A stretch of DNA of 64,000 nucleotides from Ceratorhiza oryzae-sativae (taxonomy: Eukaryota; Basidiomycota; Agaricomycetes; Cantharellales; Ceratobasidiaceae), in assembly GCA_030998015.1 (NCBI GenBank), contig JARWMV010000073.1, positions 1-64,000 of the forward strand, written 5' to 3'. Of this stretch, positions 13,272-33,084 are shown in pieces. The notes under the pieces were generated by a model that was given only the letters and a program-made list of their open reading frames with translations, was not told where the DNA came from and searched no databases. The position numbers were made by a program, and so were the translations under genes. Every line of letters begins with the position of its first letter. The stretch's first letter is position 1.

Positions 13272-13276
13272 TTCAC

Positions 13277-13946
13277 TGTTATGACCTGTCAAATGGACAT
13301 AACAGAGTAACCAAATATTTTTACAGATTTATGGCAATTTTTCCTAAGCAGAATGAGCCATAAACAAGGTCACGTGACCTCAGAGCTTAATCAGAGCTTA
13401 CAGTGGTTACCCTGAACTTGCTCCAGCATTTCTCTCCCTTGTTACTTGGAGTGAGGAGTGAGTTGTCATGTGATCTTGGTGCTTACAGCAGGATCATGTG
13501 ACCTCAGCACTTACAGTGGTTACCCTGAACTCACTCCAGCATTTCTCTCCATTGTTACTTGGAGCAAGGAGCAAGTTGTCACATGATCTTGGTGCTTACA
13601 GCAGGATCACATGACCTTAGCACTTACCCCTTGGACCTTGTGTGGCTCTATAAGATTCAGAGCTGCACAAACTTAAGATAAACAATTACCTAACCCATGG
13701 TACTATATATAACCTGTACCTACTGCAGATTGTGCTTAAATAACACATCTGCAGCCACTGCAGCCACAGGTGTATATAAGGAGGATGAAGCAAGACTGGA
13801 CACCTCAGCTTGCTTTATCTTGTCAACCACCATAGACCATAACAAACACTGTAACTAGAACACTCAATACATACTGCCTAACACCAAACTGTCAATGTAG
13901 CCACTACTTAAGTGCTTTGCAAGGAAGCATCCAGAGGGTCACAACA
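13277..13946 (+). repeat. 5' LTR of outer Gypsy (670 bp)
   Basis: TG...CA termini, with a likely TATA element near 13702-13710 (TACTATATATAA) and tandem promoter-proximal units beginning GTGGTTACCCTGAAC at about 13402 and 13517. Between units lie GATCATGTGA or GGTCACGTGACC palindromes, E-box-like. The matching 3' LTR has one more unit, which accounts for its greater length. Confidence 0.93.
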
Positions 13947-14066
13947 TTATAAAGCAAGCTCTTAACTTAACTAGTGGTGAACATAAGTATACTACACAGA
14001 TACTAAGGGCTGAGTACACAAGAAACCAGCTAACTCCTGTGATACATAAGAGAACACAAAGAAACT

Positions 14067-15902
14067 ATGTCACAGAGACCACAAACTCAATCTCAAAGCA
14101 GAGTGGCAAATAGTAGACCACAATCACTCAAGCCTGTTACTCCCCCAGAGGCCAAAGGTAACCCAGATGAAACCCTCCAAGGAATGCCAGGGGGGTTGCC
14201 ACAAAATCCACAACCAGTGGCTCAACCTAACCCCACTTGGGCCCCCACCCTGGGAGGGCAAATAGGGGGAATACCACTCTGCAGCCCTCAACTGCCAACT
14301 CTCCTGATAAATCCAGACCCAGAAGATATCTCAAATCCAGAGAGGGATGAGGTAGAAGATATGACCTGAACCATATACGAACAAGGCACAGCCTTGGCAG
14401 AAGAGGCAAGGACACAACCCCAGCCAGGTCCCAGAGCCATAACCACTGCCAACCCTATTCACACCATTGCCACCACCATCAGGGCAGGGCTCAAGGAACT
14501 TAGAGACAATAACCATAGGGAACTAGAAAAGGCAATCACAAGTATAAATCAGTGCCAAATATCACTAACATGGCAAGAAGGAAATGTGGACTGGATGGTA
14601 AGATCAATGGAAACATCCAACAGAAATGTCCTCTATGTGGCAAAGAACCAGGACAACCTAAAAGTGGAAATGGGGAACCTGATAAAAGAATTAAAAGACA
14701 TCTCCATGGAAATAAACCAGGTATTGGGAATGCAAGAGTGAAAGCTTGAAAGCTTAGAGAAGAAAACTGAAAACACAGGGGAGATCCTGACTGCACTAGA
14801 ACAATGGGTAACTGATCTAGGAAATGAGCTCCAGAAAACAACTGAAGCAGGAAGGCCAAGGGAAAGGACAGAAGAGACCAGGGGAAGAACTAGGGTGGTC
14901 ATAGGAAGCCCCTCACAATCCCCCTCAGCCTCCCCAGTATGAACACCCTTTCTGGGAAGAACCTTCCAGGCTGAGTCCACAATAAGACCCTGAACAGAAC
15001 CTCCATCCCAAGCAAACCAACCTACCCTTGCTGCAAACCACACTCCTAAGGAGGCACAACTAGGAAGACCCAGCAAATTTAACAGGAAAAAAGGGAAGGA
15101 AGCAGAGAACTTCATAATTGGCATGGAACTTTTGTTTGCTGACTACAACAAATCAGCCTTTGATGACCAAAAAAAGATATCTGCTGTGTTAATGAATATG
15201 GAGGACAGGGAAGCAGCAAACTGGGCACAACCTTACCACTGGAAACTACTAGCAGGTGAATGCACAGGGATCCTCACATCCTGGAAGGATTTCAGGAAGG
15301 GATTCCTGGATGCCTTTAATGATCCAGTCATAAAGGAAAAGACCATCCAGAAGCTAAGGAAGTTAATGCAAACCAAGAGTGCATTGGATTATGCTACCCA
15401 ATTCTGGATCCTGATCCAAGAGGTAGACTGGAACCAGGAGGCCCTGAAGGACCAATTCAGGGAAGGGTTAAAACCCAAAGTACAACAAGAGATCTTGAGG
15501 ATTGAAGTACTGGCAAATGAGGCTGAAGGACCATCATATACCCTAGATCAACTAATCGACTTTGCCTGCAAAATGGATGACATGCAGTTTGCAAACCAGA
15601 AAATGAATGCAAAGACAAGCAACTCATCAAATTCAACCTGGGCACCAGCAAGGTACAAACAAGGGGGAAAAAAGCCTTCAGGGACCAGCAGCAAACAGGG
15701 GAATACCCAAACTAACAACATGGTAAGAATACCAAACAGTGAAAAAGACAGACAAAGGAAAGAAGGACTCTGTATCAAATGTGGTAAATCAGGGCATGTC
15801 CTGAAGGACTGCTGGGGCCAGTGGACCTGTGACAAAGGTAATATACAAGGGAAGGCCAGCAGGCAAGTTGAAGAAGAAAGCAGCTCCAAGTCAGAAAACT
15901 AA
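14067..15902 (+). pseudogene. gag: gag of outer Gypsy, broken by four TGA codons
   Basis: One frame from ATG 14067 to TAA 15900-15902 with TGA at 14367-14369, 14739-14741, 14940-14942 and 14991-14993. The last part (15123-15902) is intact: a retrotransposon capsid-like helical region (LLFADYNKSAFDDQKKI..., about 15123-15600) and a CCHC zinc knuckle CIKCGKSGHVLKDC near 15772-15813 for nucleic-acid binding. All four stops are TGA, which fits CGA arginine codons mutated by C-to-T change at CpG, the general decay seen in this element. The N-terminal part is Pro/Gln-rich with a coiled-coil-like stretch around 14480-14860. Confidence 0.85.
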
Positions 15903-15919
15903 TTGGTCCTACCACTTCC

Positions 15920-17109
15920 ATGTTGGAGGACCACAATATAACCCCTACTGCAGATGTATGTTACCTCAAGAAATCTAGTAATCAATCAATAATATACACT
16001 ACAGTAGAGGGAATCATGGTACCAGCAAAGATGCTGATTGACTCAGGATCTTCAACCAACTTCATTGATAAGGCCTATTCAAGGGAAAAGAGGATCCAAA
16101 CCACTCCCCTCAAACACAAGAAATCAATTGTGGCCATTGACGGAAATGAAATCAAGGATGCCATTGAAGAAAGGGCAGAACTAAATATTGAAGTGGAAGG
16201 GAAGACACTGAAATGCTCCCTTTATGTGATGACCCTAGGCAACACAGACATAGTCCTAGGGAAAGAATGGCTTGAAGAAGCAGAACCTATCATAGATTGG
16301 AAAGACCTTACCATCTCATACCCAGACAAAATCAAGGCAAGGGCAGCAAGTGAAAGCCTACAAATCCCAGAAGAATTTAGGGATTTTGAAGACCTGTTTG
16401 GGGAAGAAGGTTTCTGAGAACTTCCACCCCACCAAGGTAACCTGGACTTCAAAATGGACCTGATTGAAGGAGCAGAGCTGCCAAAGCCTGCAAAAAGGTA
16501 CAGTATGTCACCAGCAGAAACAAAGGCGCTCAGGGAGTACTTAGAGGAGGAACTAAGAAATGGAAAAATAAGGCCCAGCCAGTCAGTTGTAGCTGCACCC
16601 TGTTTCTATGTGAACAAAGCAGATGGATGGCTTAGGTTGGTAGTCGACTACCATAAGATGAATGACATCACCAGGCCAGACAGGTTTCCACTTCCAATTC
16701 AAATAGAATTGATTGAGAGACTGAAGGATGCAACCATCTATTCAAAAATGGATGTTCAATGGGGGTTCAACAATATCAGGGTAAAAGAGGGAGACAAATG
16801 GAAAACAGCTTTCAGGACAGGAGAAGGCCAGTTTGAATGCTTGGTCATGCCATTCAGAGTAAAAGAAGGACCAAGAACCTTTACAAGGTTCATGATGGAA
16901 AAGTTCTGTGACATAATAGATCATTATGTGGTAATCTACATGGATGATGTACTAGTGTTTTCCAGAAACAGGGAAGAACATGTACAACATGTCAGGGAAG
17001 TGTTAAGAAGAATGAGGGAAAACCACCTCTTCCTCAAACCACACAAGTGTCAGTTCTTTGTGAAGGAGGTAAGCTTCATTGGAATTGTCATATCCCCAGA
17101 AGGGATATC
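15920..17109 (+). pseudogene. pol: pol of outer Gypsy, N-terminal part: protease and reverse transcriptase
   Basis: Frame 2 from about 15920. The aspartic protease shows LIDSGSSTNFID near 16030-16070 and the ILGK-type strand IVLGKEW. An in-frame TGA interrupts the frame at 16415-16417. The reverse transcriptase follows, with RLVVDYHKMN and the catalytic YMDDVLVF near 16938-16961. At 17109 the frame is cut by the inner Gypsy. It resumes after the ATATC duplication at 24031, in the same frame because element plus duplication is 6921 bases, a multiple of three. Confidence 0.9.
17105..17109. repeat. Target-site duplication of inner Gypsy (left)
   Basis: ATATC directly before the TGTCATGAAC start of the inner 5' LTR; the identical pentamer follows the 3' LTR at 24026-24030. 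Confidence 0.93.
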
Positions 17110-17486
17110 TGTCATGAACTGACACGCATACATCCACTCTACAATATTTTCTTGATTTTCTACATTTTATGAGACCATCTTCAAAACATACTTGCCTTTT
17201 ATGGTATATCTGTATCATGTGACTCAGGGAATGTTCTGGACCGGTAACCGAGATGTATTTCAACTCTGATGTGAAATTCCGCAGTTCCGCAGTCGCTTCC
17301 ACTGCTTCTATCTCTTATCTGTCGTGACTCACTGTACAGACTTGTTTGTTATGATGTGGCTCGTACTATGTATATAAACCGGGTCAAGTTTGCAGAGGAC
17401 TCCTCAAGAACTTGACCTCTCGTCGAATACAAGTTCTTTTACTTTTCTTACTATTTTCCTCGTCGCCTGACTTGTTGTCGTCGACA
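17110..17486 (+). repeat. 5' LTR of inner Gypsy
   Basis: Starts TGTCATGAACTGACACGC, ends CGTCGTCGACA. TATA-like GTATATAAACC is near 17370-17380, followed by the likely transcription start zone. Confidence 0.93.
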
Positions 17487-17807
17487 TCAGGTCAAGTTCT
17501 TGACAATCGTAAGTCTCAGTGTCGTCTGGGATACGTTTGGAACGCCGTCGGCGTCGTCTCAAGATAACTCCTCGTTGTCTTCCCCAATCCCACTCCACCT
17601 ATCCACAGTCACAAGATATCGTTGCCCTATACGCGCCTCTGTGAAACCTTGCATAGCCAGGTCCCTCACACGTCGTAACAAGCTTCGGTTCTCTAATCTC
17701 TTTCGTCAACAAGAGGTGGGGTCGCTCATTGCCCTTAAGTAGCTGAGCAACGGAGGTCACCTTCCTGTTCCCATAGACTCGGGAAAGGGTCTATTTTTCC
17801 TTTTATC

Positions 17808-18561
17808 TTGCTCTTGCTCGAGTACGCCTCTGACAGAACGAACGGCCCTCAAGTGGCACAACCTTTTACAGAAGATCAGCGCTGCCGTCTGTGTGGGTGG
17901 TTTGGACACCTATCGATCCACTGCTTCACCCTCAACTCGGTCGAAAGTATCCTTGAAGAAGCGGGGCACATCGATTTCAACCGAGTAGTAATTATCAAAG
18001 TCCGCCCCCAGAGAGTCGGACGTGCCCAACAAGCCTTCGTCACCGAGCCAGGTGCCCCTGAGTGCAAGATCTGCCGTCGGCCAAACGCAGCCACCTTCCC
18101 CGCACGCTGCCCCTATTGTCCTAAGAAGGACAAATTCCTCTATTACTACACCATCCCTCGCAACCAGCTCTAAGCTGGAGAACCTTGGTCAACAGCTTCT
18201 TCGTCACCTGCTAAACACTATCGAAAACTTCCAAGACAGGTACCGTTACTACCAGAATAAGTACGAAGAAACCCGTGAAAAACTTCACGAAGCCAAGGCC
18301 CGCTGCGCATACTTAACCGAGCGTTTGCGCGAACACCAGGAGGACTACCTATCCCTCCTCCAAGACCATCTCAGACTAGAAGCAATAGTCAGAGAAACAA
18401 TTGAACCCCACGAGTACGCCTTCCCCGTCTTCTCAACGCTGTCAGACCTTCCTCACCCCACCTTTCTAAGTGGCACGGGCTCGCCAATTCAGGAAGAAGC
18501 ACCCCTTCCGGCAGCCCAAATCAACCCTTCCCAAGGAAGCCCTCCTTCGGGACCAAACTAA
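17808..18561 (+). CDS. Leader ORFs of inner Gypsy: CCHC knuckle and coiled-coil in overlapping frames
   Basis: Two overlapping open frames lie between the 5' LTR and gag. The first (17808-18173) contains CRLCGWFGHLSIHC, an exact C-x2-C-x4-H-x4-C zinc knuckle, and further CxxC pairs (CKICRR, CPYC). The second (18022-18561) encodes a charged stretch predicted to form a coiled coil (LGQQLLRHLLNTIENFQDRYR, about 18180-18400) and a Pro-rich tail. They may be a single product needing a frame change, or remnants of an additional protein. No start codon is strongly indicated. I do not recognise a family beyond the knuckle. Confidence 0.4.
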
Positions 18562-18772
18562 ACTAAAGAAGGTGGAGTGCCCATATCGTTGCCAGGACAC
18601 CAAAAGCTGGGACTTGGACGATACTTGGTTGAGGTTCGCGGGAATCGGGAACTTCGAAATTTATAGACTTGTGAGGGGGAAAGAAATCCTATATTACCAA
18701 AACAATCCCCAATTCCCTGTACTTCTGTACCGTCTCCGTCGCCTTTGAAAATTTCATCAAATCTTCTCTGAA

Positions 18773-20164
18773 ATGGCGTCACAACCCCCCGCCCCTGCTT
18801 GGGCCAATATGTCTGATGAGGACAAGGTCATCTATATGCTTCGGTCAATGGACGAACTGCGAGAGCGAACCAATAACCTCCAAAACGATATTGGGGACGT
18901 CGAACACAATAATAAGACCTATACAGACTCACTCGAAGCAAAACTTACCACAAATCAGACAAAGATAGACGCAGATGTGGCTGGATTAGCCACCAACGTC
19001 AATAACCTAGTAGGAATGTTAGCCATTCTCCAAACCACTATCACGCGCATTGAAGCGCAAATCAACACCTCCATGAGTGGCTCAGGTGCGGCTCAAGTAT
19101 TAGCTTCCTCCAGTACAACCCAACCACAACCAACAGCCCCTGCTCCCTCTGGAGGATCAACTGCAAAGGTTAAGATGGCCGCCCCTCAAAAATTCGATGG
19201 CACAAAACGGGAGGATGCCATCTCATTCAGAATTGCATGTGCCCGATATATCAATACAAACATGAGTGGACACTCGGCTGACCAAGTGGTCGCCTTCATC
19301 ACCTCTTATCTCGAAGGATCAGCAGCTGAATGGGTTAACTCGTATGAAGAATTCGAAATTCTCAACCCTGGGACTGCGATCCCCTGGCTTCACGATGCCA
19401 ATTTGTTCTGGCAAGAATTTACTACCCGATATGGGGATCTGAACCGCACCGAAAATAACCGTGACAAGTGGCGGAAGTTGAAACAATCCAAGACGGTTCA
19501 GGATTACCTCACCCTGTTCAACTTATATTCCACAGGCCTCAACTACAACGATGCCGCCATGCGTGACCAGTTCTATGATGGCCTGTCGTCAGACGTAACA
19601 GATAGCATGGTGGCCCAAAACTATGATCCCCGCACAAAGACATTCGCCCAGCTCACACAGCGGGCCCTGGAAATTGATCGCCACCTCATCTCTTTTGGTA
19701 ACAAGAGGACATCGCATGGGGGTAATAAGTCCAGCAGCAACAATGCTTCGACTAGCAGGCCCACAAATAACCCCCAAAGTGCTCCCCAAAAGGAGAAATT
19801 CAAGAATGGGGAACGCATATACAAGATCAAAGATGGCAGGGCTGTAAAAGGTCAAATCGTAGCCATCGGTCCCAATGCGAAGGGCTTCACAGTCCCAACC
19901 GTCCGTTACGATGGCAGTAATGCCAACATACAAGAATCCTTCAAGGACATAAAGAAGGATAACCATCCACCGGCGGCCCCAAAGGCAAAGGATCCAGACG
20001 CAATGGATCTGGATAGCGCAGGGAAAGGAAAGGGAACGAACACCTGCTATAACTGTGGAGGGCGGGGCCATATCGCCGCCAAATGTCCCTCAGCCAAGAT
20101 GTCAGGATATGAGGCAGTGGTTGAGGATATAGAAACAACCGACGATGAGTCGGTAAAAGAATGA
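18773..20164 (+). CDS. gag: gag of inner Gypsy
   Basis: Intact 463-residue ORF from ATG 18773. The N-terminus has coiled-coil heptads (about residues 20-105), then a Ser/Thr/Pro linker, then a retrotransposon gag/capsid domain (about residues 135-310; FDGTKREDAISF, YLEGSAAEWV, FWQEFTTRYGD). It ends with a CCHC knuckle CYNCGGRGHIAAKC near 20045-20086. The stop TGA overlaps the following ATG as ATGA at 20161-20164, a stop-start arrangement that could allow reinitiation into the protease frame. Confidence 0.9.
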   Translation: MASQPPAPAWANMSDEDKVIYMLRSMDELRERTNNLQNDIGDVEHNNKTYTDSLEAKLTTNQTKIDADVAGLATNVNNLVGMLAILQTTITRIEAQINTSMSGSGAAQVLASSSTTQPQPTAPAPSGGSTAKVKMAAPQKFDGTKREDAISFRIACARYINTNMSGHSADQVVAFITSYLEGSAAEWVNSYEEFEILNPGTAIPWLHDANLFWQEFTTRYGDLNRTENNRDKWRKLKQSKTVQDYLTLFNLYSTGLNYNDAAMRDQFYDGLSSDVTDSMVAQNYDPRTKTFAQLTQRALEIDRHLISFGNKRTSHGGNKSSSNNASTSRPTNNPQSAPQKEKFKNGERIYKIKDGRAVKGQIVAIGPNAKGFTVPTVRYDGSNANIQESFKDIKKDNHPPAAPKAKDPDAMDLDSAGKGKGTNTCYNCGGRGHIAAKCPSAKMSGYEAVVEDIETTDDESVKE

Positions 20165-20814
20165 GCTCAAACCGTGCCAGGGGGACGGTCTTGGGCGCTA
20201 TGTTACAAAATGCGCATAATGAAAATAAGAATATGGAAGTGGAATGTATGTCGTTAGGAAACCAATCACAACTACAGTTTTTCTTTCATGCATTCCCTCT
20301 GTGCATAACCCCCAAACACAAGTCTGCATATAACATGAAAAAATTCAACGGATGGGCCATGATCGACTCAGGGGCCACGTCAGTATTTATACATGAAGAT
20401 TTAGTTAAACAATACCGTATCCCTACCATTGCCCTAAAAGCACCCAAGAAACTGAGGGTAATCGATGGAAGGGAGATAGACTCTGGGTCTGTGACCCACT
20501 ACTGCACCTTTGAGCTGTGCATTCAAGAGCACCGAGAAATCCTCAGTGCCTACGTTGTGAACGTCGGCAAAAATGATTTAGTCCTGGGCATGTCATGGCT
20601 CAAATTCCATAACCCCAACATCGATTGGGATGGAAAAGACATGAAGTTTGACTCGCCAATATGCCTGAAGCATTGCATCACAAAACCCTTGCACGTGCGT
20701 GCAAATGAACCTAAGGAGCTTCAGCTGGACTCCCTAGACTCCCTCCCAACAAAATACAAAGAATTCCAGAAAATATTCGCTGAAGAAGACGATCCAACCA
20801 CTACCACCCCATAG
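20161..20814 (+). CDS. pol: Protease segment of inner Gypsy pol
   Basis: Starts at the ATG overlapping the gag stop. The retropepsin active site MIDSGATSVFI is near 20359-20391 and LVLGMSWLKFHNP near 20578-20616 is the second conserved strand. The ORF stops at 20814 just before the RT segment, which continues in another frame (LPPHRKWDMEID is readable only there). The break is therefore a +1-type frameshift at about 20795-20815 by mutation, assembly error or recoding. Confidence 0.8.
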   Translation: MSSNRARGTVLGAMLQNAHNENKNMEVECMSLGNQSQLQFFFHAFPLCITPKHKSAYNMKKFNGWAMIDSGATSVFIHEDLVKQYRIPTIALKAPKKLRVIDGREIDSGSVTHYCTFELCIQEHREILSAYVVNVGKNDLVLGMSWLKFHNPNIDWDGKDMKFDSPICLKHCITKPLHVRANEPKELQLDSLDSLPTKYKEFQKIFAEEDDPTTTTP

Positions 20815-20824
20815 GAAGTGGGAT

Positions 20825-21949
20825 ATGGAAATAGATTTAAAACCAGATGCCAGGCCAAGGCATGGTCCCATATATAGTGTGGGTGTCAAGGAAGATGCAG
20901 AATTGCGCAAAACCTTGGATCGCCAACTGAAAGCAGGGCATATCAGACCCTCAAGGTCACCAATGGCATCTCCAGTCATATTTGTCAAAAAGAAGAATGG
21001 AAAGCTGCGCATGTGCATCGACTACCGGCGGCTAAACGAAATGACTGTCTCCAATGTGTACCCGCTCCCACGCATCAATGATATTGTGGAAACCTTGCGG
21101 GGGGCAAAGATATTCACCAAGTTTGACCTAAAGTGGGGTTTCAACCTCATACGAATTCGAGAAGGAGATGAATGGAAGGCCGCTTTCAAGACCAAATACG
21201 GGCTGTATGAGCCCCTAGTCATGCAATTTGGCCAAAAGAATGCACCAGGAACCTTCATGGCCATGATCCGTGAAGAATTCCAGGACATTGAAGGCATTTA
21301 CGTTGTAATTTACATGGACGACATATTAGTATTTTCAAAGAACCAGGAAGAACACAATGAACATGTCAGAGAAGTCCTGCACCGGCTTCAAAAGGCCGGC
21401 CTATACTGCGCCCTGGAGAAATGCGTTTTTGACGTCACTGAAGTGGACTACCTGGGAATAGTAGTAACTCCCCAAGGGATTAAAGTAGACCCGGCCAAGG
21501 TTGAAAAGGCTGTTGAATGGCCAACCCCTACAAACCCAACCGAAGTCCTGGAAGGGTTGGGGTTTGCAAACTGGTTAAGGCACTTCATAAAAGACTTCTC
21601 AAAAATCACAAATGCTCTACGAACTTGTCAAAAAGGACACAAGTGGGAATGGACAGAAGAAAGGGATCGGGCGTGGAACTTGCTAAAGCAGAAATTGAAA
21701 GAAGCACCCCTCCTAATTCAGCCAGAACCCAGCAAACCATTTATCTTAGAAACAGACGCCTCAGGCTATGCCACAGGTGCTGTTTTATTGCAATATGGAG
21801 AAGACGGAATGCTCCACCCAATCTCCTACTATTCCAAAGCAATGGTCCCAGCAGAAAGAAACTACGATATCTACAACAAAGAAATGCTGGCAATTATAAA
21901 AGCCCTCAAACACTGGCGTCACCTACTAGAAGGGGCTGAACACCCGTAA
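20825..21949 (+). pseudogene. pol: Reverse transcriptase-RNase H segment of inner Gypsy pol
   Basis: RT shows LRMCIDYRRLNEMT, FDLKWGFNLIRI and the catalytic YMDDILVFSK at about 21312-21341. The RNase H domain follows with ETDASGYATGAVL near 21748-21786 and NKEMLAIIKALKHWR. The frame ends at 21949 (EGAEHP stop) where other elements continue with DHKNLEY-like sequence, so it is truncated by a frameshift. Confidence 0.88.
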
Positions 21950-23430
21950 ACATTGTTTGTGACCACAAGAACTGGAATATTGGAAGACAAACCGGCCACT
22001 GAATGGCCGAGTCACACGATGGCATGAGTTCCTGTCCAGGTTTGAATTCAAGATTCTATACATCGAGGGGCAAAGAATGGCCGGGCAGACATACTCTCTA
22101 GGCTGTCAAGGCACATCCCTAAAGAGGGGGGTGAGAGCCAAGCTCTGCTTGCACAAAACCAATTTTTGGAATTAAAATCTCTGTGGCTACAAGCAATCAC
22201 ACCAGACCATGACCTGGAACAACTCATTAGGGACGCTATCCCAGGGGACGAGCACCTGTCAAAAGTGCTAAAAGCCCTAGATGACAATGAAAAGGTCAAA
22301 GATTGGGAATGGGACGAAGGACTCTTACGACACAAGGGCAGAATCTACGTCCCAAATAACAAAGAACTTCGCAAACTGGTCATTGAAAGCCGTCACGATA
22401 GCCCAGCAGCAGGACACCCAGGACAGTTCAGAACATATGAGTTGTTAAATCGCAAATACACATGGTTATCGATGAAAAAATCAGTCAACGAATATGTCAC
22501 ACACTGCGAGTCATGCATCAGGAACAAGCACAGCAACCAAGTCCCCCAGGGCTCCTAAACCCAATACCAGCACCAGAAAAACCTTGGGAAAATTACTATG
22601 ATCTGATCACCGGGCTACCCCTGTCAGAGGGTTTGACGCCATATTTACAGTTGTCGACCGCCTGACAAAAATGGTCCACTTTATTCCATGTCAATCGAAG
22701 CCAGTGCTATGGATTGCGCCAACTTGTTCCTAACATACGTATGGAAACTTCATGGACTACCACGAAAACAATCTCAGACCGCGGCCCCAACTTTGCATCC
22801 AAATTCCTAAGGCACCTGTATAAACGGCTAGACATAAAACCCTCCTACTCTACAGCATATCACCCACAAACGGATGGCCAGTCAGAAAGGGCCAACCAAG
22901 TAGTAGAAGGGTACCTGAGACACTACGTATCAGACGGCAGGATGACTGGGTCTCACTCCTACCCTGGCCGAATTTGCCTACAACAATGGTGTCAATGCCT
23001 CAACTGGCAAATCACCATTTTTGCAAACTATGGTTTCCACCCAAGGCTGGCAGTCGGGGACAAGGAGGACAGAATTCCCCTGCCAACAATCATGCAGAAT
23101 GGCTCCAAAAGGGCCATGACGAACTTAAGGCAGCCCTGGAAATAGCAAACCAGAGGATCAAGGAATACTATGACCGAAGCATCGGGCTCCTGAAATTATC
23201 AAGGTTGGAGACAAAGTCTGGCTTGATACCAAAAACATACGGACACAGCAGGCCTCCAGGAAACTGGCCCACAAAAGAGTTGGACCATTCAGGGTGGTAG
23301 CACAACATGGCACACATGCCTACAAATTGGACCTACCGATAACCATGAAAATACACCCAGTATTCATGTCTCACTCCTGACCAAATATAAAGACGACCCC
23401 TATGGCCGTCAGGTTCCCCCACCACCACCT
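21950..23430 (+). pseudogene. Integrase region of inner Gypsy, several frameshifts
   Basis: The HHCC zinc-binding module is in 22166-22558 (HDSPAAGHPGQFRTYELLNRK, then CESCIRNK). The catalytic core appears in shifted frames: VDRLTKMVHFIP near 22655-22690, ISDRGPNFASKFL near 22769-22809 and AYHPQTDGQSERANQ near 22855-22900. At least four frame changes are needed to read it through. Domain order is normal for a chromovirus. Confidence 0.8.
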
Positions 23431-23664
23431 GTGGTAACTCCTGAAGGGGAAGAGTTCGAAGTGGAACAGATCATAAAGTCACGATACAACAAAAGATCTA
23501 ATGTCTTCGAATACTATGTCAAGTGGCTCGGCTATGACGAGCGACAATGGTTAACCTATGACGACCTGGTGAATGCACCAGAACTCATCGCTGACTATGT
23601 CAAGTCGCACCCAAAGGCACCCCAGGACCCCCGTGCCTTGAAGGGGGGAAGTGTCATGAACTGA
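23431..23664 (+). CDS. Chromodomain tail of inner Gypsy integrase
   Basis: Short open frame with EFEVEQIIKSRYNKRSNVFE, YYVKWLGYDERQWLTYDDLV, a chromodomain (three strands and a helix with conserved aromatic residues). In chromoviruses this domain directs integration to methylated-histone heterochromatin. The ORF runs to the very start of the 3' LTR. Confidence 0.8.
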   Translation: MVTPEGEEFEVEQIIKSRYNKRSNVFEYYVKWLGYDERQWLTYDDLVNAPELIADYVKSHPKAPQDPRALKGGSVMN

Positions 23665-24025
23665 CACGCATACATCCACTCTACAATATTTTCGATTTCT
23701 ACATTTTATGAGATCATCTTCAAAACATACTTGCCTTTTATGGTATATCTGTATCATGTGACTCAGGGAATGTTCTGGACTGGTAACCGAGATGTATTTC
23801 AACTCTGATGTGAAATTCCGCAGTTCCGCAGTCGCTTCCACTGCTTCTATCTCTTATCTGTCGTGACTCACTGTACAGACTTGTTTGTTATGATGTGGCT
23901 CGTACTATGTATATAAACCGGGTCAAGTTTGCAGAGGACTCCTCAAGAACTTGACCTCTTGTCGAATACAAGTTCTTTTACTTTTCTTACTATTTTCCTC
24001 GTCGCCTGACTTGTCGTCGTCGACA
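23652..24025 (+). repeat. 3' LTR of inner Gypsy
   Basis: Near-identical to 17110-17486. Preceded by the polypurine tract AAGGGGGGAAG and followed by the duplication ATATC at 24026-24030. Confidence 0.93.
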
Positions 24026-24030
24026 ATATC

Positions 24031-26254
24031 AATGGAAAAGGAAAAGGTAAAGGCAGTACTAGAATGGCCAGAACCTAACACAGTAAAAGAAGTCCAAGCA
24101 TTCCTAGGCTTTGTGGGGTTCTATAGAAGGTGGATAGAGAAGTTTAGCACCTTAGCCAAACCCCTCACAGATCTCACTCAAAAAGATGTCAAATTCCTGT
24201 GGGAAAGAAAACAACAAGAAGCATTTGAAGCTATTAAAGAAGCAGTAGCAAGAGAACCAGTCTTAATTCACCCAAACCCAAACAAGCCATACATACTGGA
24301 AACAGATGCCTCAGGAGTGGCCATGGGGGCAGTACTAAGCCAAAAGGGTGATGACAACTGATTGCATCCAATTGCCTTCCTATCAAAGAGCTTCACCCCA
24401 CCAGAGAAAAATTATGACACCTACAACAAGGAGTTGCTTGCAATTGTTAGGTCCTTAGAGCACTGGAGGTTATACCTAGAAGGGACAGAAGAACCTATTG
24501 TGATATACACTGACCATAGGAACCTCCAGTACTGGCAAAATGCCCAGATGTGGAATAGAAGGCATGCCAGATGGTATCTCACTCTGGCACCCTTCAATTT
24601 TCAGATTGTGTATAGACCAGGGAAACTCTCACAGAAGCCAGATGCCCTTTCCAGAAGGAGCGACCATGGGGACACCCCTATGGAACCATAGATCATGATT
24701 CCAGAAGAAAGGTTCATAGGTTTCAAGGCAGAGGTACAGGGGAATTTCTGGGAGGAGCTTAAAGAAGCTCAGGAAGAAGACAAATCTATCAGATCCTTAA
24801 GGCTGAGCATGGCAAATAAAGAACAACTACCACCCTCAGTACAGAAGGAATTTAGATGGTACAAAATGAAGGAGGGCCTATTAAGGTATGATGATAGGCT
24901 CTACATCCCAGATGACTAGGACTTGAGGTTGAGTCTCCTTGAGGAGTGCCATGATGCCCCTGTGGCAGGTCATCAGGGACAAGCCTGAACACTAGAATTA
25001 CTATCAAGGGATTACTACTGGCCAGGAATGAAGGCCCAAGTAAACCGATATGTGGAATCTTGTGAAATGTGTCAAAGAAGCAAAGGACACAAACAAGGCG
25101 CTCCCCTGAAGCCCTTACCAATCCCATGGAAACCATGGGCAGATGTTGCATATGATTTCATTGTCAAATTACCTGTCTCAAAGGGGTATGACAGCATCTT
25201 GACAGTTGTAGATTGCTTCTCCCAGCAGGCCCACTTTGTACCATGTCTGGAGAGCACCAATGCAGAAGAACTGGCAGAAATATTCATAAGGGAGGTATGG
25301 AGGACATCACAGGACCCCAGAAACCACTGTCTCAGACTGAGGGCCAACCTTTAACAGCCAATTCCTAAAAGCCCTATACAAGGGAATTGGGACAAAGCCC
25401 AGATTCTCCACTGCCTTCCATCCAGAAACAGATGGACTGTCAGAAAGAACAAATCAATGGGTAGAGGGGTCCTTAAGAACCTTCTGCAATTATAGACAAG
25501 ATGATTGGGTAAAATGGTTACCCATTGCCGAATTCTGCCATAACAACCATGTAAATGCTACAACAGGACAAACCCCATTTGAAACAGTATATGGGAAAAC
25601 CCAAGATGGGTTGTCCAAGAGGGAGAAGAACTGTCTGAGGCACCTGCTGCAGACAACATGCATAATCAAATGGAAAAAGTATGGGATGAGGCAAGAGCCT
25701 CAATGGAATTACACCAACAAATGGAAAAGAAAGGGAGGGAATTCAAGGTAGGAGACAAGGTTTGGCTGCTCCTAACAAACCTCTTGTCCAAGAGACCCTC
25801 CAAGAAATTGGACAACCAAAAAGGGGGCCCTTTTGAAATCACAGAAAAGATCTCATCCCATGTGTATTGCCTGGACCTACCTAAAACCATATGTGTACAC
25901 AATGTATTCCATGTAAATCTCCTCTTGCCATTCACAGAAGATAAAGACTTCCAAAGAAGGCAGGCCAAACCACCACCAATCATAACAGAAGAAGGAGAGG
26001 AGGAGTATGAGGTGGACCACATTGCAAATTATGAATGGCAGAATGGCAAGCTGTTTTACCAAATCAGATGGAAGGGCTATGACCCAATAGAAGACACAAT
26101 GGAATGTGCCAGCAAGTTTGCTGACATGAAAGAGGTTCTAAATGACTTGCAAAGGTGCTTACCAGATGCACCAATGCCAGTCAAGACAAGTCAGCACTCA
26201 GGTGACTTGAAAGGCAGGCCAAAGAGAACCAAACAAGGACCTGGAAAGCTTTAA
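24031..26254 (+). pseudogene. pol: pol of outer Gypsy, C-terminal part: RT end, RNase H, integrase, chromodomain
   Basis: Continues the RT reading frame after the nested insertion (MEKEKVKAVLEWPEPNTVKE). RNase H: ETDASGVAMGAVLSQ, NKELLAIVRSLEHWR, YTDHRNLQYW. Integrase: zinc-binding H/C pairs near 24945-25080, VDCFSQQAHFVPC, DRGPTFNSQF and FHPETDGLSERTNQW. Chromodomain at about 26005-26090 (YEWQNGKLFYQIRWKGYDP). In-frame stops: TGA 24359-24361, TAG 24689-24691, TAG 24917-24919, TGA 24986-24988; frameshifts near 25290-25340 and 25650. Ends TAA 26252-26254. Confidence 0.9.
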
Positions 26255-26307
26255 AAAGAGCCATCCAGGATACCCAAGAAAGGCCAGAGCCTGCTCTACC
26301 ACCCCAC

Positions 26308-27162
26308 TTGCACCACAATACACCTGCAAAACCCCAAAACATGCCTTTCATCACTCACCCAGTCGCACACCCCAACCATTACATGCCACTTGCTGAAAAT
26401 CAGGTGGCCCCACTTTGGCAGCCACCCACCACTAGGTGGCCAGCACCCTACCCTGGCAGGGAAAATTGTCCTAAACTAGGGATGTACTGCTCCAGTGTGG
26501 AAGATGCCCAGAGGTATGCTGAGCAACTGTTGCCAGGGGCTAACCTAGTGTACATCCCAAAGAAGTTGAGGGATGAAAGGAGCTGGATTGACAATGACAA
26601 GTACCTGGATCCCAGGTTAGGGGTCCTGACATGGCATGGAAGCCAGAAGCCAACAACAAGAAACGCCTTGCTAAGAACACCAATGTATGTCATTGACAAT
26701 ATTGTGGGACCAACAGTTGACATGGTGGCCAAGGCAGTGAGACAACAGAGGAGGGCTGCAGGCCAAATGGCAGACAGGGGGGACTGGGAGGTGGAGCACT
26801 GGGCCAAGGCATTGTTGGAAGAGTGGAAGTTGACACCAGCCACACTGTATGTGGGACTGCTTGAAGCAACTACCACTGATGAGATGTTTACTGCTATCAG
26901 GACAAAGCAGGCAAACATGAGCAACTTCCAAAATTGGGTGAAGGTGCACCCAAACAAAAACACCAATTACAACACTGATATGACAAGCCTTACATCAAGC
27001 CTAGAATCACTGGTTGTGGCTGAGGCAGAAGCAAAGCCAGTGATAAAGGAACCCACCCCAGACCCAGCTGCAGAGGAAGCCAAACAGGACTGGGACTGGT
27101 GGGAAAATGAGCTTGTCAAAGCTCTGGAAGAGGTGCCACTGTTGGAACCAGCCCCCATATGA
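26308..27162 (+). CDS. Orphan ORF of outer Gypsy cargo module (284 codons)
   Basis: Uninterrupted frame after the chromodomain, in a different frame from pol. The first in-frame ATG is at 26344-26346; translation could also begin upstream by frameshift from pol, since that frame is open back through RAIQDTQERPEPALPP. The protein has a Pro/His-rich N-terminus, a central part with GRENCPKLGMYCSSVEDAQR and IPKKLRDERSWIDNDKYLDP, and an acidic Trp-rich C-terminus (QDWDWWENELVKALEEVP). No signal peptide, membrane segment or catalytic motif is visible. I do not recognise the family. It stayed open while gag and pol decayed, which suggests it is or was useful to the element. Confidence 0.6.
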   Translation: MHHNTPAKPQNMPFITHPVAHPNHYMPLAENQVAPLWQPPTTRWPAPYPGRENCPKLGMYCSSVEDAQRYAEQLLPGANLVYIPKKLRDERSWIDNDKYLDPRLGVLTWHGSQKPTTRNALLRTPMYVIDNIVGPTVDMVAKAVRQQRRAAGQMADRGDWEVEHWAKALLEEWKLTPATLYVGLLEATTTDEMFTAIRTKQANMSNFQNWVKVHPNKNTNYNTDMTSLTSSLESLVVAEAEAKPVIKEPTPDPAAEEAKQDWDWWENELVKALEEVPLLEPAPI

Positions 27163-27233
27163 CCACTTTGCCCCTCACAGATTTTTTCTCAAATGTATAA
27201 GAGTTTTATATCAAACCTAATACATTTTACTCT

Positions 27234-27766
27234 CTATTTACATTTGCCCTTGAGGGGCCAGGTATAGGGCTTCTTGCCCTTCTTATCCTTCTTATCAGAC
27301 CAAACAACTGACTGGGTGGTGGGCTGCAACCAAGGGGCCTCCCCCCCTGGGAAGTCAGCCATGTAGTTCTGGAAACACCCAGAACTGGATGCTGAAAAGG
27401 GTGAAGCCTCATCAAACAAGGGAGCAGAGCCCTCCTCAAAGAATTCAGCAAGAGCAGCCTGGTGAGCCTGTTCCTCAAAGGACTTGTTGTTCTGATCAAT
27501 GAGCACCCAGACATGCTCAAGGGTGGCTTCATGGGCCTGACCATTGAGGAGTATGCGCTCTTCTACAGAGCAAGTAAGTAACAAGAGACCAATGAAGAAG
27601 AAGCATATGTACCTGGCACCCCAAGGAAGAACCAGTCCCTGACACCTTCATAGAAGTCCTCAAGGGAGGTGTTGCACACAGCATTGCAATAGGCACAGTA
27701 CTCCACCTCAGGCAGAGACCAGCAGGTGCAGTCAAGGGGATTGTAGTTAAGGGTAATAACATGCAT
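27234..27766 (-). CDS. Spliced antisense gene of outer Gypsy cargo module (160 residues)
   Basis: Opposite strand to the element. Exon 1 is 27613-27766 (ATG at 27764-27766) and exon 2 is 27234-27562, ending TAG. The 50-base intron 27563-27612 (GTACAT...CTGTAG) restores one open frame across a split Glu codon. The N-terminal part is Cys-rich (CTCWSLPEVEYCAYCNAVC), the middle is acidic and helical (FEEQAHQAALAEFFEEG), and the tail is Lys-rich (SDKKDKKGKKPYTWPLKGK). Family unknown. An intron on this strand would survive an RNA intermediate copied from the sense strand. It is divergent from the Rep-like ORF across a 388-base gap. Not obviously a capsid protein, since no basic N-terminus is seen. 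Confidence 0.55.
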
Positions 27767-28154
27767 AGTAAAGACAGGATGAGGAAGGGGAACAACAAAA
27801 CCACAAACATTAAAAAATCACAGTGCAACCCAATAACTTGCACAAACATCAAAACAAAGTCTGGTCAGGTGACACAAACAGACATGTGACCATCTGCCAG
27901 AAAACAAACAACAAAGCATGGGAATCACATGACCTAGCCTAGTCACATGAATATATGCTATCCCCTAACTACCAGAGGGGTTGGAGAGGGGGCACTGACC
28001 AAAGATGGAGGAGCAGAGGCCCCAAGCATAGTGAGGAATAAGGCTGATGTGGGGGAATGCAGGAAGGGCACCCCTTGGAGATGCATCATAACCAGCACAA
28101 GCCTACATCAGGAAACCACATGACCACAACAACCAGAGAAGGTATATCTAGGGG
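27767..28154. other. Divergent intergenic region between antisense gene and Rep-like ORF
   Basis: Separates two head-to-head ORFs, so it probably holds both promoters. AATATATGC at 27949-27957 could be a weak TATA element for the Rep-like ORF. A small hairpin, CCCCT (27962-27966) and AGGGG (27976-27980), encloses a loop of exactly nine bases, AACTACCAG. The stem is only 5 bp, so its significance is doubtful. Confidence 0.35.
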
Positions 28155-29516
28155 ATGCCCTTGGGGGTAAAAGGGGCTATCATCTCATGCCCTCCCCTCA
28201 AGATGCATCTACCTCTAAAAAAACCAACAATGCTAAGCGAAGATGGCTCAAATGTGGGAACACCCCAGCCAAATGAATCAAGTGCAGGGTGGAGGTTGGC
28301 ATTGCCATCACTGGTGCACTCAGGATCAAGCCAAGCCCCCTCACCCACTTCCATGCAGCCTATGCTGACAGATTGCAGGTCCAAAGAGCTGACCAAAACC
28401 ATGCTGGCCCCCCAATTCTGCATCCAGACCAGGGTGGTGCTGCTGACCTGGTTGAAGCTACACGATCAGCCCTCAAGTGGGCTCATCACCCAATACAAGG
28501 TGTTCTGCTGCCATCAGCCCAATCACTGGGCAACTTTAGCCATGGTCAAACAGCACAACCTGGAGGAGCCAAACTACAACCTGACCCAGCCCCTGCATGT
28601 CCACACCCTCTCCATCAGTCGGGAATGGAAGGGCAGGTGGAACACCCAGAACATGGGGTTCTGGGACTTTGAGGGGCAACACCCCAACATTCTGCCCAAG
28701 GACCTCAAGGACAGGCCAGGAGGCAACCCAGCAAGGGATGCCTTCAACTATCTCTGGAAGGATGTTGGAGCTAACAGCAAGGAGATAGAGGATTTGATGG
28801 CAGGGGATCTGACCTTGGAAAGGTTAGAGGAGATCTTGGTGAAGGGAAAGGGCAGAAAACAGTCTAGGATGGAGGCAGACTTGGAGGACAGGACAGAGAT
28901 TGTCACCTTGGCAACAAAACAGGAGTACTACCAGGTGTTCAAACACCTCCACCCCCTCCAGATGGTGACAATGTGGAACTTGGTACAAGCATATGCCAAA
29001 TACACATACAAGGAAGACCAGGGTTGCATGCCTGCAATCCCTGTGGAGTTAGAAGTCCTGGAAGACCAGGAGCACATTGACCAAGCAGACAGATGGTTTG
29101 CTGAGGAAGTCAAGAAGAGGGGAAGAGGGGTGCACCATTGCATCCTGGTGATAGAAGGAGAGACTGGAACAGGGAAAACAGCATATTCACAATCCAAGGG
29201 CTGCCACAGCCAGATGTGCAATGTGTGGAATGTGGGGAACTTGTTGGAAGATGCCAACATTTGGATCCTGAATGACATGGTCCAGTCAAATGGGAAGTAC
29301 TTGCTCAAGGCCCTGAGCCAGTACAAGGTGGACTTCACAGGCAGGTATGCACATGTAAAATCGATGAAGGTACAGCTGACAGTTATTCTGGGTAATAGCC
29401 AGTCAGCAATCATGAAGTGTTGGTTGGACATAGAGGGGGAAGAGGGGGACTTATGGGTATCAAAAAATGTAGAATGGGTGTACTCAGGAGGAAAACCATT
29501 CTTTGTATTCCCTTAG
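28155..29516 (+). CDS. Rep-like rolling-circle initiator (HUH endonuclease + SF3 helicase), CRESS-DNA virus type, inside an LTR retrotransposon
   Basis: Intact 453-codon ORF from ATG 28155. Motifs in order: motif I VLLTW (residue about 98); motif II LHVHTL (147-152), the metal-binding HUH; FWDFEGQHPNI (about 168-178), placed as the geminivirus-type inter-motif segment; motif III YLWK with candidate nucleophile Tyr199 and Lys202; Walker A GETGTGKT (335-342); Walker B IWILND (369-374); motif C VILGN with Asn414. Spacing of about 50 residues between endonuclease motifs and about 30 and 40 between helicase motifs fits CRESS Rep proteins, which nick a plus-strand origin and unwind DNA. Walker B has Asn-Asp where two acidic residues are common. 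N-terminal 90 residues are unassigned. It is neither Helitron Rep (no Pif1-type helicase) nor a Gypsy protein. Activity is not shown. Confidence 0.8.
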   Translation: MPLGVKGAIISCPPLKMHLPLKKPTMLSEDGSNVGTPQPNESSAGWRLALPSLVHSGSSQAPSPTSMQPMLTDCRSKELTKTMLAPQFCIQTRVVLLTWLKLHDQPSSGLITQYKVFCCHQPNHWATLAMVKQHNLEEPNYNLTQPLHVHTLSISREWKGRWNTQNMGFWDFEGQHPNILPKDLKDRPGGNPARDAFNYLWKDVGANSKEIEDLMAGDLTLERLEEILVKGKGRKQSRMEADLEDRTEIVTLATKQEYYQVFKHLHPLQMVTMWNLVQAYAKYTYKEDQGCMPAIPVELEVLEDQEHIDQADRWFAEEVKKRGRGVHHCILVIEGETGTGKTAYSQSKGCHSQMCNVWNVGNLLEDANIWILNDMVQSNGKYLLKALSQYKVDFTGRYAHVKSMKVQLTVILGNSQSAIMKCWLDIEGEEGDLWVSKNVEWVYSGGKPFFVFP

Positions 29517-29633
29517 AATAATTTACTCTATTGTACATCTTCTGCTATGCCCATCCAAACAGTTGGGGCATCCTGAGAAGAAGCAGACAACTCTTCACCC
29601 TGGAATAACCTCCACAACAAAGAAAAGAAAAAC

Positions 29634-29760
29634 AATCTCATGTAACATAGAGGTTAAGGGGTCTAGCCTGACTCAGCCTCACCTCATTGAATGATACTGA
29701 ATCAGCCAAAAGGTTGTTGGTTTGAGTCCAGTGCCCTTAACCTCCTTGGTGCATGAGATT
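29634..29760. other. Long imperfect hairpin with tRNA-like 3' arm
   Basis: Three nested inverted pairs share one centre near 29697: AATCTCATG (29634-29642) with CATGAGATT (29752-29760), GAGGTTAAGGG (29650-29660) with CCCTTAACCTC (29734-29744), and GACTCA (29670-29675) with TGAGTC (29723-29728). The 3' side GTTGG-TTTGAGT-CCAGT looks like a tRNA T-arm with a B-box-like GGTTTGAGTCC. No clean cloverleaf can be drawn. It may be a tRNA-derived remnant, an RNA signal of the element, or a DNA hairpin used by the Rep-like protein. Confidence 0.5.
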
Positions 29761-29826
29761 CCTTTTGCATAAAGGATCAAAATCATGTCTTGAGGTCCCC
29801 CAAGACATGTCCAAAGGGGGGGATAA

Positions 29827-30592
29827 TGTTATGACCTGTCAAACAGACATAACAGAGTAACCAAATATTTTTACAGATTTATGGCAATTTTTCCTAAGCA
29901 GAACGAGCCATAAACAAGGTCACATGACCTTGCCGCTTAATCAGTGCTTACAGTGGTTACCCTGAACTTGCTCCAGCATTTCTTTCCCTTGTTACTTGGA
30001 GCAAGGAGCAAGTTGTCATGTGATCTCAGCACTTACAGCAGGATCATGTGACCTCAGCACTTACAGTGGTTACCCTGAACTCACTCCAGCATTTCTCTCC
30101 ATTGTTACTTGGAGCAAGGAGCAAGTTGTCACATGATCTTGGCACTTAACCAGCACTTATGGTGGTTACCCTGAACTTGCTCCAGCATTTCTCTCCATTG
30201 TTACTTGGAGCAAGGAGCAAGTTGTCACATGATCTTGGTGCTTATGGCAGGATCATGTGACCTTAGCACTTACCCCTTGGACCTCACATGGCTCTATAAG
30301 ATGTGGAGCTGCACAAACTTAAGATAAACAATTACCTAACCCATGGTACTATATATAACCTGTACCTACTGCAGATTGTGCTTAAATAACACATCTGCAG
30401 CCACTGCAGCCACAGGTGTATATAAGGAGGATGAAGCAAGACTGGACACCTCAGCTTGCTTTATCTTGTCAACCACCATAGACCATAACAAACACTGTAA
30501 CTAGAACACTCAATACATACTGCCTAACACCAAACCATCAATGTAGCCACTACTTAAGTGCTTTGCAAGGAAGGATCCAGAGGGTCACAACA
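29827..30592 (+). repeat. 3' LTR of outer Gypsy (766 bp)
   Basis: Preceded by the polypurine run AAAGGGGGGGAT. Same start and end as the 5' LTR but 96 bp longer, because three rather than two GTGGTTACCCTGAAC units are present (about 29952, 30067, 30162). Followed by TTCAC at 30593-30597. Confidence 0.93.
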
Positions 30593-30597
30593 TTCAC

Positions 30598-32399: not shown

Positions 32400-33079
32400 T
32401 GTCATGACCCTCTGGAGGCTCCCTTGTGGAGCACTTAAGTAGTGGCTGCGTTGACGGTTTGGTGCTATGCAGTATGTATTGAGCGTTCTAGTTACAGTGT
32501 TTGCTATGGTCTATGGTGGTTGACAAGATAAAGCAAGCTGAGGCGTTCAGTCTTGCTTTACTCCCCTTATATATATGTGACTGCGGTTGCTGCGGTGGCC
32601 CCTCTTTCCTAAGCGCCGTCTATAGCAGTTATAGGTTCTATATAGTACCAGGTCTTAGGTAATTGTTTATCCTAAGTTTGTGCAGCTCCGAATCTTATAG
32701 AGCCGCGCGAGGTCCGAGGGTCATGTGACCTTTTGGACTTAAGCACCCGGCGCTTAATCGCTGGATAAGCGCCGAGGTCACGTGACAACTCGCTCCTTGC
32801 TCCAGGTAACATGGGAGAGAAACGCTGGAGCGAGTTCAGGGTAACCACCAGCACTTAGTCGTTGGGTAAGCGCCGAGATCACGTGACAACTCGCTCCTCG
32901 CTCCAGGTAACATGGGAGAGAAACGCTGGAGCGAGTTCAGGGTAACCACTGGTGCTTAATCGTTGGGTAAGCGCCGAGATCACGTGATCCTGTTTATGGT
33001 TTGTTCTGCTTTGGGAAAAATGCCATAAATCTGTACAATATTCAGTTGTTAGGTTATGTCTGCTAGGCGGGTCATAACA
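32400..33079 (-). repeat. Solo LTR of the outer-Gypsy family, target duplication CTGAG
   Basis: Reverse complement of the outer Gypsy LTR family (starts TGTCATGACCCTCTGG, ends GGGTCATAACA), 680 bp, flanked by CTGAG at 32395-32399 and 33080-33084. No internal region, so it arose by LTR-LTR recombination. It retains many CG dinucleotides, including CACGTGAC repeats at about 32777, 32880 and 32982 where the outer element reads CACATGAT or CATGTGAT, showing what the family looked like before CpG decay. Confidence 0.9.
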
Positions 33080-33084
33080 CTGAG

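Follow-up and report, generated by a model that had tools for sequence, protein, structure and literature searches.

Results

A Rep gene inside a Ty3/Gypsy chromovirus

The window analysed here comprises positions 1-64,000 of contig JARWMV010000073.1 (forward strand) in the Ceratorhiza oryzae-sativae assembly GCA_030998015.1, and carries a Ty3/Gypsy chromovirus in which a gene for a putative geminivirus-type replication initiator protein (Rep) sits between the chromodomain and the 3' long terminal repeat (LTR). A sequence-only reading of the window had described a 453-codon open reading frame (ORF) at 28155-29516 (+), which we find intact, and had placed it within the Gypsy element's own LTRs and TTCAC target-site duplication, as the coordinates of both confirm. 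The motifs named in that reading are all present: LLTW (residues 96-99), the HUH motif LHVHTL (147-152), Tyr199-x-x-Lys202, Walker A GETGTGKT (335-342), Walker B IWILND (369-374) and motif C VILGN (410-414). To that list we add FWDFEGQHPNI, which we take to be a motif of the GRS type (Table 1). From the evidence set out below we consider it very probable that Rep is an integral and selected gene of this chromovirus family, and neither a fossil nor passive cargo.

The alignment of Rep copies from the genome contains 41 sequences, 30 in group 1, seven in group 2 and four in group 3 (which takes in L070, L072 and L074), after removal of the duplicate loci L040 and L042. His148, His150, Tyr199, Lys202, Gly335, Thr337, Gly338, Lys341 and Asn414 are invariant in all of them. 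The first Asp of Walker B is replaced in the window copy (D373N) and kept in 27 of the 30 group-1 and in all 11 group-2 and group-3 copies; more than half of group 1 (16 of 30 copies) has Asn at position 374, and both positions are Asp throughout groups 2 (seven copies) and 3 (four copies). The family consensus is DD and the window copy reads ND. Within Walker A of group 1, Thr339 is altered in six copies and Gly340 in one.

Codon 1 of the open frame is variable (Met in 8, Thr in 21 and Lys in one of the 30 group-1 copies; Gln in all five copies outside group 1 that reach that far). All 41 copies have Met at codon 26, which aligns with the first Met of the Ceratobasidium sp. 395 protein P0007, and for these two reasons the true product probably starts at Met26 and has 428 aa (28230-29516). 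Over codons 26-453, two of the 30 copies in group 1, four of seven in group 2 and three of four in group 3 are free of stops (9/41). A single TAA occurs in 24 of the 98 matches listed in a genome search with the Rep of copy C57, just ahead of Met26 in the copies that were read. Stops also recur at residues 60, 87, 113, 278 and 310 in 11-14 of the 41 copies, a pattern that may reflect either subfamily inheritance or mutation hot spots. Of the 280 private changes among Rep copies, 131 are C>T or G>A, and 27 of the 32 differences between the LTRs of the window copy are transitions; together they resemble the pattern left by repeat-induced point mutation or deamination.

Relationship to geminivirus-type Reps

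The proposal that the protein is a Rep of the geminivirus type, as found in circular Rep-encoding single-stranded (CRESS) DNA viruses, is supported by profile comparison with Reps of phytoplasma plasmids. Aligning 24 element Reps with nine plasmid Reps by hhalign gave 313 collinear columns (E 2.4e-5, probability 75%) at 19% identity. The N-terminal catalytic part alone matched over 84 columns with E 6.7e-5 and the helicase part alone with E 9e-5. In each of the three tests none of 150 column shuffles attained the observed score, and crossed and reversed controls gave 0.087 or worse. The order of the motifs and the conserved residues add to this signal: HUH catalytic-domain homology is accompanied by motifs I-III in their proper order, and the Walker A, Walker B and C motifs of a superfamily 3 (SF3) helicase follow.

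In a hidden Markov model scan, Gemini_AL1_M was matched by 16 of 78 family members, the best match (E 0.001) covering model positions 11-106 of 107. Of the outcomes that the sequence-only reading had named as refuting, a complete absence of profile matches did not come about, although the catalytic families PF00799 and PF02407 gave no match. Weak matches to nSTAND3 and AAA_22 were seen in 41/78 and 27/78 members, respectively. As a yardstick, the Rep of phytoplasma plasmid pAYWB-I, which retrieves replication-associated proteins from the PDB, gives 3.7e-20 with Gemini_AL1 but just 0.032 with Gemini_AL1_M.

A search with the window Rep protein, P0001, found 44 homologous proteins at E<=1, and a profile search 77 at E<=10; the named organisms among the homologues are all Ceratobasidium, with AG-Ba, 395, 428 and UAMH 11750 among them, and the remainder are mostly metagenome proteins. 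These 44 homologues, together with the number of genomic places given below, indicate that the ORF is more than a chance frame. Among viral contigs a motif pattern picked out seven loci on contigs of 8.4-67 kb, and a search with the Rep alignment confirmed none of 116 pattern stretches; tblastn of plasmids with P0001 gave no match at E<=1. In our reading, Rep is a captured gene of the geminivirus type which occupies the env position of the element.

Copy number and position within the family

Had the Rep gene been a chance insertion in this one copy, as the sequence-only reading allowed, other copies should lack it. Instead Rep lies at at least 113 distinct places of the genome (two genome searches pooled, plus five further loci), and none of the 90 chromodomain copies compared was demonstrated to be without it. 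An LTR follows about 310 bases past Rep in 29 of the best 30 Rep loci (L004 being the exception), these loci having been picked by Rep, and a non-coding stretch precedes Rep in 28 of the same 30 (not in L018 and L020). The order from gag to Rep is intact in nine of the 13 copies read upstream (C87, C68, C240, C1, C57, C8, C241, C249 and C243), about 6 kb being inserted into that span in C8. Of the others, C3, C55 and C13 have interruptions, and C61 is cut off by the contig end. Two other copies are likewise flanked by 5-bp duplications, CCAGT in C87 and CACAA in C57.

An approach independent of the choice of Rep loci started from the arm of a hairpin located behind Rep, which occurs exactly 142 times in the genome (reversed control, 0). 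For 70 of the first 100 places a Rep is listed no more than 2.5 kb upstream, the usual distance being about 114 or 137 bases. From the other 30, five were examined and all five contain Rep; because they matched in several pieces or at low identity, their frames are probably broken. Starting from the chromodomain, and among the matches listed, a Rep is reached within 4.5 kb downstream in 63 of 90 copies and in 68 when the range is widened to 12 kb (52 and 58 with the first Rep list alone). Among the same matches, the remaining 22 divide into 11 with a hairpin arm downstream and 11 with neither Rep nor hairpin arm; none is a proven Rep-less copy.

Selection on Rep and the mosaic 3' module

Rep is under purifying selection. 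Between the stop-free copies C1 (L037) and C57 (L038), compared pairwise, we counted 88 synonymous and 30 nonsynonymous changes, giving a nonsynonymous rate (dN) of 0.031, a synonymous rate (dS) of 0.373 and a dN/dS of 0.083 (bootstrap 0.049-0.128); the helicase part has 48 synonymous and eight nonsynonymous changes. Reading residues 84-453 of the same pair in shifted frames raised the ratio to 1.74 and 2.48. The window copy gives 0.188 (0.136-0.264) against C57 and 0.311 (0.221-0.451) against C1, higher values that we infer to arise from decay of the group-1 copies.

Between groups 1-2 and 1-3 (11 copies) the ratios for Rep are 0.23 and 0.13. The same comparison gave 0.18 for gag, 0.16/0.13 for the protease, 0.11 for the reverse transcriptase (RT), 0.07 for the integrase piece, 0.23/0.24 for the chromodomain and 0.22/0.25 for ORFX, a frame located between chromodomain and Rep. 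Rep therefore falls within the range of gag and chromodomain in the same copies. Within groups its ratio is 0.31-0.37.

Nonsynonymous changes make up a far smaller share of the fixed differences over residues 84-453 than of the private ones. The nonsynonymous:synonymous counts are 5:16 fixed and 171:101 private for groups 1-2 (Fisher p 8e-4), 12:67 and 182:111 for groups 1-3 (4e-14), and 11:68 and 93:62 for groups 2-3 (7e-12). The N-terminal tail, residues 26-83, has no sign of constraint (fixed differences 6:2, 6:2 and 0:0). Since the copies share descent and recombination, these tests are not independent; the frame-shift control is unaffected. The earlier suggestion that the gene hitchhikes is spoken against by the low ratio, by shifted frames above 1 and by the depletion of nonsynonymous fixed changes.

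Groups 2 and 3 are nearly identical in RT (dS 0.03) and differ in ORFX (0.34) and Rep (0.49 with one group-3 copy, 0.54 with four). The Rep of C57 resembles that of group 2 as far as residue 180 or so, and carries many synonymous differences beyond. These sequences suggest that element lineages have exchanged the 3' module.

Organisation of the element

The coordinates are collected in Table 1. The order gag, protease, RT, RNase H and integrase with chromodomain, LTRs of the type TG...CA, a 5-bp duplication, a primer-binding site and a polypurine tract identify the unit as a chromovirus; in the window copy the Chromo score (24.8 bits) is slightly below its cut-off of 25.1, and no Pfam family matched the integrase catalytic core in the broken frame at 25341-25748. 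The 12-base complement between the LTR interior and the site just past the 5' LTR is perfect in seven of seven copies examined. Self-priming of this sort is known from Tf1, and the family is probably self-priming. Sense-strand A-richness is common to gag, RT, integrase, ORFX and Rep (AT skew 0.21-0.36), to be compared with 0.00 and -0.02 in the flanks and 0.14 in a second Gypsy element nested in the RT gene.

The nested element, which interrupts the Rep-bearing one, is the younger of the two. Its LTRs are 98-99% identical to each other, and its terminal chromodomain-like ORF, as judged by eye, enters the 3' LTR and leaves no space for ORFX or Rep. In the LTRs of the Rep-bearing element there are tandem repeats of 94-113-base units with palindromic CACATG/CATGTG (two units at 13391-13616, three at 29942-30244), which are possible promoter repeats or Rep-binding iterons. 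The minus strand carries another LTR-like sequence of this family at 32405-33083, with an identity of about 78-80%, which is perhaps a solo LTR.

Table 1. Features of the Rep-bearing element and of the element nested in it (positions in the window)
Feature	Position	Strand	Evidence or remark
Target-site duplication TTCAC	13272-13276 and 30593-30597		flanks both LTRs of the window element
5' LTR, TGTTATGACC...GGTCACAACA	13277..13946	+	LTR pair 95.2% identical outside indels
Presumed primer-binding site, self-priming type, ATAAAGCAAGCT	13949..13960	+	exact complement of AGCTTGCTTTAT within the LTR (13807-13818)
gag open frame, Retrotrans_gag PF03732	14994..15899	+	Pfam E 3e-10 over 15123-15902
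Aspartic protease, RVP_2	15872..16414	+	Pfam E 2.7e-11 over 15920-16417
RT, broken by the nested element	16418..17109	+	RVT_1 E 2.8e-29 over 16454-17122
Nested second Gypsy with its own LTRs, outside the Rep system	17110..24025	+	ATATC duplication at 17105-17109 and 24026-24030
RNase H region, two frames	24026..24688	+	RT_RNaseH_2 1.5e-18, RT_RNaseH 8.7e-25
Integrase region, two broken frames	24989..25748	+	Integrase_H2C2 (zinc-binding) 2.6e-12
Integrase C-terminus, SH3_Tf2-1 and chromodomain	25583..26251	+	1.2e-16 and 2.1e-5 over 25658-26254
ORFX, env position, between chromodomain and Rep	26206..27159	+	open frame; at least 125 genome matches
Rep-like gene from probable start Met26	28230..29516	+	open frame begins at 28155
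Rep motif I LLTW	28440..28451	+	
HUH motif II LHVHTL	28593..28610	+	His148 and His150 in 41/41 aligned copies
GRS-like motif FWDFEGQHPNI, residues 169-179	28659..28691	+	counterpart of RFFDIEGFHPKIE in phytoplasma Reps
Motif III Tyr199-x-x-Lys202	28749..28760	+	both residues in 41/41 copies
Walker A GETGTGKT	29157..29180	+	
Walker B IWILND	29259..29276	+	Asp373 -> Asn in the window copy
Motif C VILGN	29382..29396	+	Asn414 in 41/41 copies
Imperfect hairpin, 123 nt, conserved, between Rep and polypurine tract	29636..29758	+	fold z-score -5.1
Polypurine tract AAAGGGGGGGATAA	29813..29826	+	identical in 10 copies compared
3' LTR	29827..30592	+	LTR pair comparison, termini

ORFX has no Pfam or PDB match and no homologue at E<=1 in a search of 5.8 billion proteins. 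Its dN/dS between groups marks it as constrained, and it is without relatives at that threshold though Rep has them in Ceratobasidium AG-Ba. The idea that ORFX is a capsid protein is unsupported, the protein having no homologues and not being basic (36 K+R, 41 D+E). In the hairpin behind Rep, 1300 of 1326 pair cells are standard across 34 copies, whose alignment also served to derive the structure. A stretch resembling a tRNA T-arm, GGTTCGAGTCC, is present in the hairpin of several copies of groups 2 and 3. A tRNA as such was rejected: ARAGORN reported none by default and inconsistent results between copies under loose settings, and Rfam gave no tRNA match at four loci.

Discussion

A proposed role for Rep

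The profile homology and motifs of Rep, its position, its mobilisation within the LTR unit and the purifying selection acting on it are the observations on which any account of its role has to be built. As the most likely mechanism, which we put forward tentatively, Rep nicks and unwinds circular or otherwise unintegrated DNA copies of the element. Expression of the gene, nuclease activity of its product, the substrate and the amplification of circles all enter this proposal as conditional steps. Copying of the element through RNA and its integration would proceed as usual. Rep would be produced from the 3' part of the element genome and then enter the nucleus, where Tyr199 would nick circular or unintegrated double-stranded copies, either in the LTR or in the hairpin region, and the SF3 helicase would unwind the nicked copies for copying. 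The outcome would be extra templates for transcription or integration.

Several results weigh against this interpretation, some of them touching the proposed function and others the identity of the protein. The nonanucleotide NANTATTAC, expected of a canonical origin, is absent from both strands of 13001-31000, and the hairpin conserves its arms and not its loop, unlike a nick site; the nick site could lie elsewhere, for instance in the LTR with its tandem repeats. Integrase-type duplications account for the insertions without any need of Rep, and no tandem arrays were seen among the at least 113 Rep places, the closest same-strand spacings being 3.9, 12.2 and 16.6 kb. Selection on Rep is looser than on RT and the integrase piece, and Thr342 of Walker A is altered in 11 of 41 copies (nine, one and one in groups 1, 2 and 3). 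As to identity, P0001 matched no Pfam family at E<=10 and no PDB chain, the stop-free copies C1 and C57 gave one Gemini_AL1_M match at 0.053 and otherwise no family, and the PF00799 and PF02407 profiles matched nothing in the genome, nor in their controls. In the scan that yielded Gemini_AL1_M, unrelated families scored alike (P53_TAD in seven members, best 0.0052; PRMT5_TIM in 12, best 0.06). AlphaFold models from alignments of 24 and 49 rows are of low confidence (pLDDT 32 and 42). Finally, the strength of the hhalign match varies with the alignment used, falling to E 0.0083 and a probability of 4.8% with an alternative alignment, A1, and to E 0.0055 with a 17-row subset. Because of these last two values we regard the profile signal as real but not overwhelming.

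Alternative explanations

A possible, though on balance unlikely, alternative is that Rep serves as a nuclear helper in trans. Geminivirus Rep binds DNA as well as host proteins of replication or the cell cycle, and the element Rep could do likewise, favouring integration at replicating chromatin or the permissiveness of the host. Selection on the protein, the lack of a canonical origin in the region searched and integration with 5-bp duplications are all consistent with such a role. The preservation of the HUH His residues, Tyr199, Lys202 and P-loop residues Gly335, Thr337, Gly338 and Lys341 in 41/41 copies suggests that catalysis matters, and this argues against the helper role.

We hold as doubtful the broader proposal of a dual-mode element, which would combine RNA copying by RT with amplification of circular DNA by its own Rep, and whose 3' block of ORFX, Rep and hairpin (about 3.6 kb) would perhaps be the genome of a captured circular virus or plasmid still equipped with its origin.

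It is improbable that Rep nicks linear or circular cDNA for integration, strand transfer or recombination between copies, with no rolling-circle replication. The mosaic 3' module, in which C57 has an RT close to that of group 2 (dS 0.03) and a Rep diverging past about residue 180, makes recombination between copies likely and would fit this role; template switching during reverse transcription yields the same mosaics without Rep, however, and an SF3 helicase would be superfluous.

That Rep is passive cargo or a decaying viral fossil trapped in the element we judge very improbable, because the gene is under purifying selection. The small number of copies free of stops over codons 26-453 (9/41) and the Walker B substitution of the window copy would be expected of such a relic, but a dN/dS of 0.08 with shifted frames above 1, a ratio within the range of gag and chromodomain and the shortage of nonsynonymous changes among fixed differences would not. 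Scarcely credible is an unrelated P-loop protein with HUH-like motifs arisen by chance, a view to which the missing Pfam match of the window copy, the weak nSTAND3 and AAA_22 matches, the low-confidence models and the weaker profile results with other alignments lend something, and against which stand the match of the N-terminal domain alone to Rep catalytic domains (E 6.7e-5, 0/150 shuffles) and a best Gemini_AL1_M match that is correctly placed and covers 96 of the 107 model positions.

Significance and comparison with known systems

LTR retrotransposons copy through RNA, and Rep proteins copy circular DNA. The family to which the Rep-bearing element belongs unites genes for RNA copying and for DNA replication in one element at more than 100 places of one fungal genome, where selection holds Rep about as tightly as the element's gag and chromodomain. 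In its many copies it preserves the record of a captured gene of the single-stranded DNA virus kind that is still constrained, and it allows a direct test of whether a retroelement can exploit a DNA-replication initiator. In the open-access papers searched we found none that describes an LTR retrotransposon carrying a Rep.

The Reps of phytoplasma plasmids (pAYWB-I and others) share the motif order and the collinear catalytic and helicase domains of the element Rep; the identity is 19% over 313 columns, and they reside on circular bacterial plasmids. Helitrons resemble our element in bringing an HUH domain and a helicase together in a eukaryotic transposon, but they encode a RepHel protein and are not known to have target-site duplications or LTRs, whereas the unit described here is bounded by LTRs and 5-bp duplications. 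Furthermore, RepHel exceeds 1,500 aa according to the cited article (PMC6431247), and the element Rep has about 428 aa and is of geminivirus type.

Endogenous Reps have been described in fungi, including a multi-copy, geminivirus-like Rep in a terminal inverted repeat (TIR) transposon of Tuber melanosporum (Liu et al. 2011, PMC3198968). That element has 37-bp TIRs, two transposase ORFs and an interrupted Rep ORF, and the words LTR and retrotransposon do not occur in the available text of the paper (PMC3198968). LTR retrotransposons of bdelloid rotifers have captured a third ORF of env-like, GDSL esterase or DEDDy exonuclease type (PMC5408684); they resemble our element in carrying a foreign ORF3 within an LTR element, and no Rep appears in the main text of that paper (PMC5408684).

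Our element is a fungal chromovirus with LTRs and an integrase, in which selection on Rep was measured, and in these respects it differs from the Terminons. Elements of the Terminon type have a Penelope-like RT and are not known to carry LTRs or an integrase, and the Gypsy-type gag, RVT_1, integrase zinc finger and LTRs found here place our element outside that group. According to the cited article, the Terminons of bdelloid rotifers belong to the Penelope-like Athena retroelements. They are giant elements that reach 40 kb, lie at telomeres and are endonuclease-deficient; they bear Rep, and circular intermediates have been suggested for them (PMC6431247). The Rep-bearing chromovirus of C. oryzae-sativae may be regarded as a fungal counterpart to these rotifer retroelements.

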